Of a DNA stretch of 41,444 nt, positions 2,747 to 37,534 are shown one piece after another (positions within the stretch are counted from its first letter, which is position 1; each line of letters begins with the position of its first letter). Below the pieces are notes generated by a model, which saw only the letters and a program-made list of their open reading frames with translations, had not been told where the DNA came from and ran no database searches. The position numbers were made by a program, and so were the translations under genes. Location: contig JAAYZA010000144.1 in NCBI GenBank assembly GCA_012515055.1, positions 1-41,444 of the forward strand. The letters run 5' to 3'. This DNA is from Syntrophomonadaceae bacterium (GTDB taxonomy: Bacteria > Bacillota > Syntrophomonadia > Syntrophomonadales > Syntrophomonadaceae).

Positions 2747-3676
2747 TTACCTCAGAATGGTCTGGTCGACAATATCATTAAATTCGTAATTGTTTTTGAT
2801 CAGATCTTTTTTAAGCATCCAATCGACTACATCACTAAAAACATCTTCCCGAATTATTTCAGCCTGGTGATAAAAGGGTAAATCCAGAGAATCTTTAATT
2901 CCAGCAGGAAAATGTAGTTCTTCAATAATAAAATCGATATATTTGTCCGCCGCTTCGTTTTGTAAATATTCAACCGCCTGATTGTAGGCACGGAAAACTG
3001 CTTTTATTTCTTCGGTGTTTTCCTGGATGCTGTAAGAAGTAAAAGCGATGGCACCAGCTTTGTTGTCCATCTGGTCAGTACTGGTCAATACATGGGCTCC
3101 ATTTTTAACTGCCAGCCCGGCCATGGGCTCCGGCAAAATGGCCGCATCAATTTTGCCCCCCTGCAGCATTTCCAGGCGGGTGGGCAGTGGCGGTATGGCA
3201 ATTTTGCTGACTTCATTATCTTGCAGGCCATGGACTTCCAGCATTTTGTCCAAAGTGAATTCCATGATGGTATTGGTTGACAATCCGATATCCTTGTCTT
3301 TTAATCCGGCAACAGTATTTATTCCCGCTTCTTTGCCGGCCATCAGCAGAATATTGCCGTCACTTCGGGCAATTATCCTTAAATCAATGCCGCCTTCATT
3401 GGCAAATAAAACCGCTGCTATATCAGTTATAACTCCATCCAGCTTGCCGCTTTGCAGTGCACTGTCACGGTCTTTGGCGCTGCTGAAATGCTCTATATTC
3501 ACATTAACGCCTTCACGAGCAAAATAACCATTTTTCTGGGCGATTAAAAAAGGAATTGATTCTACATCGGGCATTACGCCAATATTAATGGTTTTATCCA
3601 CCTCTGTTTGCTGGTTACAGCCAAATATGCCAAAACTGCATAAAAGCACCAGCAGGACAACTAAGAATTTCTTCAT
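2747..3676 (-). CDS. ABC transporter substrate-binding lipoprotein (NMT1/SsuA-like)
   Basis: Lipobox-like LLCSFGIFGC signal; INIGVMPDVESIPFLIAQKNGYFAREGVNV typical of NMT1/SsuA-type binding proteins. Confidence 0.88.
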   Translation of the reverse strand: MKKFLVVLLVLLCSFGIFGCNQQTEVDKTINIGVMPDVESIPFLIAQKNGYFAREGVNVNIEHFSSAKDRDSALQSGKLDGVITDIAAVLFANEGGIDLRIIARSDGNILLMAGKEAGINTVAGLKDKDIGLSTNTIMEFTLDKMLEVHGLQDNEVSKIAIPPLPTRLEMLQGGKIDAAILPEPMAGLAVKNGAHVLTSTDQMDNKAGAIAFTSYSIQENTEEIKAVFRAYNQAVEYLQNEAADKYIDFIIEELHFPAGIKDSLDLPFYHQAEIIREDVFSDVVDWMLKKDLIKNNYEFNDIVDQTILR

Positions 3677-3997
3677 CAGTACCCCCGTTCATTCTCTCTA
3701 GCAACTTCTTGATATTGCGCTTACATCTGGCATAATTATAATAGTTTATCCCATAAAAAACTACTTTTAGCCAGTGTCTAATCTATTTCAATTATAAATA
3801 TAACACTAAAACAGTAACAAACACTGGACGGGGATAGAATTAAGTGCTATTTTAGTAAAAGTAAATAATGTGAAGTAATTCACTATCGGTGCTGATATGC
3901 TGTTCAATTGATCAAATAAAGGTGGAAAGCCTTATCAGCTATAAATTTAACCGCCGTCGGGAATATTTTACTGATTGGATCTACAGGAGGTGTAACT

Positions 3998-31937: not shown

Positions 31938-32219
31938 GTGTATATAGAACAATTTATGGTATTCAAAGTAATCACCCAGAGCGAAAGTTTTACTAAAGCA
32001 GCTAAGATTTTAAACTTGACCCAGCCAGCAATAAGTTTTCAAATCAAACAATTGGAAAAAAAATATCAGGTGAAATTATTTACCCGCAGCAATCGCGGCG
32101 TAAAACTTACCGATGCCGGTGAAACTTTTTATAATTATTGTGAAAAGATCCTGGCCGTTTACAATGAATTGGAAACTGCCATGGCTGATGAAGCCCATCG
32201 GGTGCCACTACAGGAATAA
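31938..32219 (+). CDS. Stand-alone LysR-type HTH protein (93 aa, no effector domain)
   Basis: MVFKVITQSESFTKAAKILNLTQPAISFQIKQLEKKYQVKLFTRSNRGVKLTDAGETFYNYCEKIL = LysR HTH_1; stops at residue 93. Confidence 0.88.
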   Translation: MYIEQFMVFKVITQSESFTKAAKILNLTQPAISFQIKQLEKKYQVKLFTRSNRGVKLTDAGETFYNYCEKILAVYNELETAMADEAHRVPLQE

Positions 32220-35916: not shown

Positions 35917-37020
35917 CTACTTGCTCAATTCCGCCAGGATCTCGGGTGAGGGGTGATTGGGAATCACTGCAATCACTTCATCACCATAGGTGAAAACTTC
36001 TTCATCAGCAGCAGTTATTTCGCCGATCAGGGCCACTGCCGCCCCCTTGCTCCGGGCCGCTGCCAGCACTGCTTCAACATCTTCCGGGGCTACCTGCAGG
36101 AGCATCCGGGCCTGGGTCTCGCAAATAAAGACCTCTTCCGGCATGATATCATCCACTCTGACCGGTACTCGGGCCAGATCCACCCGGGCACCAAAGCCGC
36201 CGAAACGAGCTGATTCACAAACCGCTGCACCAATCCCCGCTGCGCCCAGATCGGAACATGCTTTTATTTTACCGGTGGCAAATGCCGCCAGAGAAGCTTC
36301 CATGGTTACTCTCTCTTCAGCAAATAAAGCCCGGGCCGGATACAGATTGGGGACCAATCCCGCTCTATAAAGAGTGTCATTACCGTCATTGCCGGTTTCC
36401 CCTATTATTATTATCTGATCCCCGGCGGATTTGGCCGGTTTAGTCAGAGGTTTTTCCGTAACCAGCTGGCCGGTCACCGATACTACCATGGCTGGTACAA
36501 TATCACTGAAGGAAGTAGAAAAGCCGCCGCCGGCGATGAAAACTCCCATGCTTTCACACATATCAGCAATGCCCTTGAGCATCAGGTTGATCCTCTCCTG
36601 ACTGGTCATGGTAACACAGCTGCCGCAGGTACATACGCCCTCAAAGCCGCAGGGACCAACCAGAACCTCTTCTTCCGGAGGACGGGTCCCGATAAAATCC
36701 AGTGCATAAATGGGCCGGGCACCCATTGCTACAACATCGCGCATGGCACCACCCGCTCCGGTTGCTGCACTGTCATAAGGACGGGGTACACAGGGAGAAC
36801 AATGGCTCTCCATTTTACCTACTACCAGACAACCTGTGCCCGGCAGTTTAACAACAGCAGCATCATCATTGGCATCCGGTCCCACCAGTAATGCCCCCGG
36901 CCAGGTTTCATCCACTTTTTGATTAAGCCTTTTAAACATGCCAAAATCAATAGCCTTGTCTGCATTGTGATGCAGATGAACAAAAAGTGCATGGATAAGA
37001 GCTTGCTCAATACGATTCAT
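35917..37020 (-). CDS. AIR synthase / PurL-like single-module protein with Cys-rich insertions
   Basis: YDSAATGAGGAMRDVVAMGARPIYALD resembles PurL [22 protein letters not shown]; also CSDLGAAGIGAAVCE; PurL HNHPS loop replaced by HCSPC; extra CGFEGVCTCGSC motif. Confidence 0.75.
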   Translation of the reverse strand: MNRIEQALIHALFVHLHHNADKAIDFGMFKRLNQKVDETWPGALLVGPDANDDAAVVKLPGTGCLVVGKMESHCSPCVPRPYDSAATGAGGAMRDVVAMGARPIYALDFIGTRPPEEEVLVGPCGFEGVCTCGSCVTMTSQERINLMLKGIADMCESMGVFIAGGGFSTSFSDIVPAMVVSVTGQLVTEKPLTKPAKSAGDQIIIIGETGNDGNDTLYRAGLVPNLYPARALFAEERVTMEASLAAFATGKIKACSDLGAAGIGAAVCESARFGGFGARVDLARVPVRVDDIMPEEVFICETQARMLLQVAPEDVEAVLAAARSKGAAVALIGEITAADEEVFTYGDEVIAVIPNHPSPEILAELSK

Positions 37021-37174
37021 AAATATCCTCCTTCAGTTGTGTTAGGCTCAATATACACTGTCCCACCAAGAATTCTAACATAATTTATTTAAATTACCCA
37101 CTTGCTGACAGTTTTATTGTTATATTGTTTATAATTATAACCATAAGTAATTAATTTTAAATGGGGTGATGATA

Positions 37175-37534
37175 ATGGCAGCAAAATTTGAGTTTTATTG
37201 TGTTACTTCCTGAAGCACCTGCCGCAAAGCGCAAGCGTGGCTTGTGGACAATAAAATAGACTTTGACTATCATGATTTGCTCAAATCCCCTCCGGCACAT
37301 GATGAGCTGAACAAACTGGCGGCCATCGGAAAAGGGTCTTTGAAAGATCTTATCAATCCCAGAAGCCAGGTGTTTAAAAAAATGGATATTGATCTGGGGG
37401 CCATAGATGAAAAGAATCTGGTTGATTTGATTCAGGCCAACCCCAGAATATTGATTCGTCCGCTGTTAACGGATGGAAAAGAATTATTACTGGGCTTCAA
37501 AGAAGGTGATTATCGGGATTTGTTTCAGGCCTGA
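37175..37534 (+). CDS. ArsC/Spx-family thioredoxin-fold protein; candidate selenoprotein with in-frame TGA (37211-37213) as Sec
   Basis: MAAKFEFYCVTS-U-STCRKAQAWLVDNKIDFDYHDLLKSPPAHDELNKLAAIGKGSLKDLINPRSQVFKKMDIDL...LIQANPRILIRPLLTDGKELLLGFKEGDYRDLF: family-wide match on both sides of the TGA. The ORF track began at GTG 37244, losing the active site. Confidence 0.85.
37211..37246 (+). promoter_or_regulatory. Candidate bacterial SECIS element immediately after the UGA
   Basis: UGA-AG-CAC-CU-GCCGC-AAA-GC-[GCAA]-GC-GUGGC-UU-GUG: CAC/GUG, GCCGC/GUGGC (one G-U) and GC/GC stems, GCAA apical loop whose G lies 17 nt after the UGA. Confidence 0.6.

Follow-up and report, generated by a model that had tools for sequence, protein, structure and literature searches.

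Selenocysteine (Sec) has been described before in proteins of the ArsC fold. A UxxS Sec-containing arsenate reductase is known from the Sargasso Sea (PMC1088965), and the UxxC form appears in the GOS selenoproteome as 'Arsenate reductase 2', assigned to cd03032 (PMC2398784). A review of 2026 covers 119 families and subfamilies, among which the only ArsC entries are UxxS and UxxC, with NF041106 given for UxxC (PMC13188914). For Spx of B. subtilis, the G52R substitution disrupts the interaction between Spx and alphaCTD, and the C-terminal residues control proteolysis by ClpXP (PMC2801614).

The locus analyzed here lies on the plus strand of the window, i.e., the whole 41,444-nucleotide stretch of DNA under study. 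The reading frame starts with the ATG at 37175, contains an in-frame TGA at 37211-37213 as codon 13, and runs to the next stop, TGA 37532-37534, giving a read-through translation of 119 residues. The original prediction had placed the start, the TGA, and the end of the open frame at these positions, and the coordinates match both the sequence and the translation. Comparison with homologs leads us to assign a probability of about 0.93 to the reading that the product of 37175-37534 is a selenoprotein with the thioredoxin-like fold of Spx and ArsC. The features of the locus are as follows.

37175..37534, plus strand: predicted gene of the Spx/ArsC-family selenoprotein of 119 residues, the interval ending with the TGA stop (read-through translation, profile matches, homologs of the same organization).
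37163..37168, plus strand: Shine-Dalgarno-like GGGGTG, 6 nt upstream of the ATG, read in the sequence; most homologs have a similar G-rich stretch ahead of their start codon.
37199..37201, plus strand: codon of Cys9, an invariant Cys four residues upstream of Sec (Cys in 40/40 members of the Sec clade; most Bacilli Spx have Thr or Ser here).
37211..37213, plus strand: in-frame TGA, read as putative Sec (residue 13) and aligning with Cys10 of B. subtilis Spx (TGA in 41/41 close homologs; Cys in Bacilli Spx).
37220..37222, plus strand: codon of Cys16, the putative resolving Cys of the U-x-x-C motif, invariant across the clade.
37230..37246, plus strand: bSECIS-like hairpin of 7 base pairs, CGCAAGC-GUG-GCUUGUG, 19 to 35 nt past the T of the TGA (synonymous-codon permutation; pairing and compensatory changes in the 22 members of this register).
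37244..37534, plus strand: 96-aa GTG-started ORF nested in the predicted gene, without the active site; the only ORF given there by the mechanical ORF list.

Truncation to this 96-aa ORF by gene callers had been foreseen, and it is what the mechanical list contains; the alignment of homologs shows that the conserved FYC-U-x-T-C region is missing from it. That the TGA sits on the first redox Cys of CxxC also stood up. The motif itself was amended to C-x3-U-x2-C, because a further invariant Cys stands four residues before Sec.

The read-through protein matched TIGR01617 (Spx/MgsR) with 86 bits (cut-off 75) and PF03960 (ArsC) with 65 bits (cut-off 24) over its whole length. Among solved structures, the profile search ranked Spx first, with identities of 30-37%. 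The AlphaFold2 model had a pLDDT of 94, and Foldseek placed Spx structures on top, 1z3e with a TM of 0.88 at 1.6 Å. The label ArsC/Spx-like was thereby borne out, with Spx as the nearest described group. A tree was built from 95 proteins, in which all 40 Sec proteins of full length formed one side of a branch with support 96/83, as did the Bacilli Spx with 100/95. A tree joining the Sec clade with Bacilli Spx was not rejected (p-AU 0.52). The tree thus places the clade near Spx, with a sister relation unproven.

The Spx/ArsC fold with the redox CxxC, here UxxC, is present in the window protein and in its clade. In Spx numbering, Sec, Cys13, and Arg92 are present in all 40 members, as is a further Cys at position 6; 39 of them have Pro93, and the residue at position 60 is Lys or Arg. 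Gly52 and the surrounding alphaCTD-binding surface are not kept in these 40 members: position 52 is Gly in only three and mostly Thr, and R47 and K62 are variable. Positions 118-131 are gaps in at least 37/40, so the C-terminal tail beyond 117, which carries the ClpXP recognition site in Spx, is absent there.

These residues bear directly on the rival explanation that survives best, namely that the protein is a Sec version of the Spx regulator, whose Sec-Cys redox switch would act through binding to the alpha subunit of RNA polymerase and would activate thiol-stress genes upon oxidation. The top sequence and structure matches to Spx, the joined tree, and the retention of U10/C13, R92, and P93 together with a basic side chain at R60 all agree with it. 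The loss of Gly52, the variation at R47 and K62, and the missing tail argue against it, and ArsC-type proteins with FNTSG motifs also score above the cut-off of TIGR01617, which is named a regulator family, so the family name is no proof of a regulatory role. On balance we regard this explanation as rather unlikely. A regulatory role is possible, though two Spx-defining features have been lost; that a Sec-Cys switch would control an RNA-polymerase-binding Spx-type regulator in anaerobic Firmicutes through a contact other than Gly52 is an unlikely extension of the same idea. If true, it would to our knowledge be the first transcription regulator known to sense with Sec.

The selenoprotein reading draws most of its strength from the homologs, for which an alignment of TGA at position 13 had been proposed as a check. 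In 63 genomes of the window's order, 29 close homologs were found, and each of the 29 has a single internal TGA, aligned to the same residue, in an intact frame; the class-level search gave the same 63 genomes. Twelve further close homologs outside the class, from 398 genomes drawn across the phylum, had the TGA at the same codon. Altogether, the equivalent codon was TGA in 41/41 close homologs, which come from the order and from at least 10 further families in the phylum, and Cys at this position was found in none of the 41. The Sec clade is present in at least 41 bacterial species. The conservation of the TGA is far beyond chance. No frameshifts or other pseudogene signs were seen, and the frames were intact on both sides of the TGA in the homologs. 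After the TGA, dN was well below dS in all 10 close pairs for which dS was defined (0.077 vs. 0.905 in one of them), and the downstream frame is, by this measure, under purifying selection. Upstream, the FYC motif was nearly invariant among clade members.

Beyond the close homologs, the next tier consisted of Bacilli Spx with Cys (about 100 bits), followed by an ArsC-type FNTSG group that mixes Cys and TGA forms. A single-sequence search of genome contigs matched only the Cys Spx of Periweissella, and the plasmid and phage searches gave only distant relatives, the annotated ones being SpxA; none of these searches found the Sec form. In other genomes of the phylum, outside the window's clade, several ArsC/Spx-family genes (among L101-L116) have a TGA at the active-site codon; the tree intersperses them with Cys forms, and the ones that were scanned fall below the NF041106 cut-off. 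This pattern suggests repeated exchange of Cys and Sec within the ArsC/Spx family. One of these loci, L102, has two TGA-containing ArsC-family gene copies at about 807-1136 and 3473-3802, some 2.7 kb apart on one contig.

A bSECIS element downstream of the UGA had likewise been named as a check. Minimum-energy folds of single 45-nt stretches gave varied structures, so permutation and covariation tests were needed. Synonymous codons were shuffled within each of 29 genes, leaving protein and codon usage unchanged, and the stability of 42-nt folding windows was compared. Those starting +3 to +18 past the TGA were more stable than expected (summed z -5 to -6), whereas those starting at +21 or later had no excess stability (summed z about 0). 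Codon choice favors folding only for folding windows that include nucleotide +18. Two hairpin registers were seen among the members, the longer of them in the window's gene. Across the 22 members that share it, 88.6% of the cells pair, a figure that leans toward the chosen register because the register was picked from the same sequences; the permutation test is free of this bias. Three pairs change on both sides, the hairpin has 12 double-change cells, and none of 500 shuffles reached as high a covariation score. When the partner strand was shifted 1 to 3 columns, pairing fell to 23-48%. The element sought is accordingly matched by a SECIS-like hairpin with folding bias and compensatory changes, and by comparison the UGA is retained as a coding position with a selected hairpin, a predicted SECIS element, directly 3' of it.

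The host assembly consists of 419 contigs and is 94.7% complete with 6.2% contamination. It contains tRNA-Sec (72 bits, cut-off 47), SelB (351 bits), and SelD (381 bits). The selD gene has an in-frame TGA of its own in the context AAG-U-AAKIGPG, the known Sec site of SelD. This SelD (G000:C77:2020-2943, L158) is itself a selenoprotein, and its gene shares an 8.4-kb contig with that of tRNA-Sec. Of the sel genes that were to be checked, selB, selC, and selD were therefore located, and selA was not found in the fragmented assembly; as the SelB gene begins at base 3 of its contig, a neighboring selA could sit in an assembly gap. A strong tRNA-Sec match was present in 26/29 carriers of the order. 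Among the three others, G055 and G002 have SelB, and in G051, of the same genus as the host and 92% complete, neither tRNA-Sec nor SelB was found over cut-off, though its TGA gene is intact; either missing sequence or recent loss would account for this. Across the order, co-occurrence of the gene with tRNA-Sec did not discriminate, because 55/63 genomes have a strong tRNA-Sec match. Taken together, the conserved TGA, the hairpin, the host selB, selC, and selD, and the intact frames support the Sec reading of the original prediction.

The two remaining explanations concern the TGA itself. Decoding of UGA as a different amino acid, for instance Trp or Cys, through read-through or an altered code is very improbable, given a host with tRNA-Sec and SelB, a site that is Cys in related families, and a SECIS-like hairpin with covariation that follows it; TGA is moreover an ordinary stop in 12/36 other genes of the window, on which ground a change of the genetic code was rejected. 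A pseudogene or sequencing error, with the TGA as a true stop and the 96-aa ORF as a remnant or shorter gene, would account for the in-frame stop and the GTG ORF downstream, yet it is a negligible prospect, refuted by the 41 independent genomes that share the TGA in intact frames, by the purifying selection downstream, and by the nearly invariant FYC motif upstream; the 96-aa ORF was likewise rejected as the true gene.

For the selenoprotein, fold and motif make a Sec-dependent small thiol/selenol oxidoreductase of the Spx/ArsC fold the probable function. The UGA at 37211 would be decoded as Sec by SelB and tRNA-Sec, directed by the hairpin just downstream, a step that the comparative evidence strongly supports. 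The redox center would consist of the U13 selenol and Cys16, probably joined by Cys9. Motif and fold suggest that Sec would attack an oxidized substrate (a disulfide, an arsenate-like oxyanion, or a sulfenic or nitroso thiol) and that Cys16 would resolve the intermediate, and the Arg and Pro kept at the Spx R92-P93 position may bind the anion or the substrate thiol. As a secondary possibility, the Se-S switch could signal to a partner protein, like C10-C13 in Spx.

Often the gene has a MEMO/radical-SAM pair on one side and carA or argC on the other (names assigned by sequence), in a chromosomal slot that is conserved in some genera. No clear functional link was found from the gene neighborhood, and the recurrence looks like shared chromosome order. 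At 35917-37020 on the minus strand, divergent from the Sec gene, the window encodes a protein related to AIR synthase that resembles PurL and, weakly, SelD, a neighbor that recurs in the two other genomes of the genus. It was rejected as SelD, with scores of 59 bits vs. a cut-off of 299 and 55 vs. 125. At 31938-32219 there is a 93-aa LysR-type DNA-binding domain that ends with TAA and lacks an effector domain; no long ORF occurs in the roughly 1 kb after it. In NCBIfam the domain matched best to a selenium metabolism-associated LysR (82 bits, cut-off 250), and the fragment may be a decayed regulator.

Compared with Spx of B. subtilis and the Bacilli (TIGR01617/NF002459), the clade shares the fold (TM 0.88), the position of CxxC, and the Arg-Pro motif, and differs in Sec for Cys10, the extra invariant Cys at position 6, the loss of Gly52, and the missing C-terminal tail; the NF002459 score is 94, below the cut-off of 123. 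With the Sec arsenate reductase of the UxxS type (TIGR00014) it has in common Sec at the catalytic Cys of the ArsC fold, but it contains UxxC instead of UxxS and reaches 41 bits against the glutaredoxin-type model, whose cut-off is 106. The FNTSG-type ArsC proteins of the phylum (L101-L116, partly Sec) share the fold, the Cys four residues before the active site, and in several cases U-x-x-C; they form a separate branch of the tree that contains both Sec and Cys proteins, the window's clade having Sec throughout. NF041106, the ArsC family (seleno)protein, likewise has an ArsC-type domain and Sec first in UxxC. Against its cut-off of 85, the window protein scored 25.5 bits and L084 39 bits, the range being about 25 to 39 where scores were seen. 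None of the 398 phylum genomes matched NF041106 at E ≤ 1e-12, an absence that is weak evidence, as no control genome matched either. As cd03032 is the Spx subfamily of CDD, Sec in an Spx-type protein had probably been seen in marine metagenomes in 2008 already. The window's clade does not appear among the 119 families listed in 2026; an earlier unlisted report, in supplementary tables or in subscription papers, is possible. Because of this absence and of scores far below the NF041106 cut-off, we consider the clade a new subfamily of the already known Sec-containing ArsC-type proteins. It extends Sec-containing ArsC/Spx proteins into Firmicutes as a widespread family, which standard gene callers would shorten to a fragment lacking the active site, and a family model would correct many annotations. 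Since Sec is present in every clade member seen and Cys in the sister groups, the clade can be used to test what Sec adds to an Spx-type redox center.
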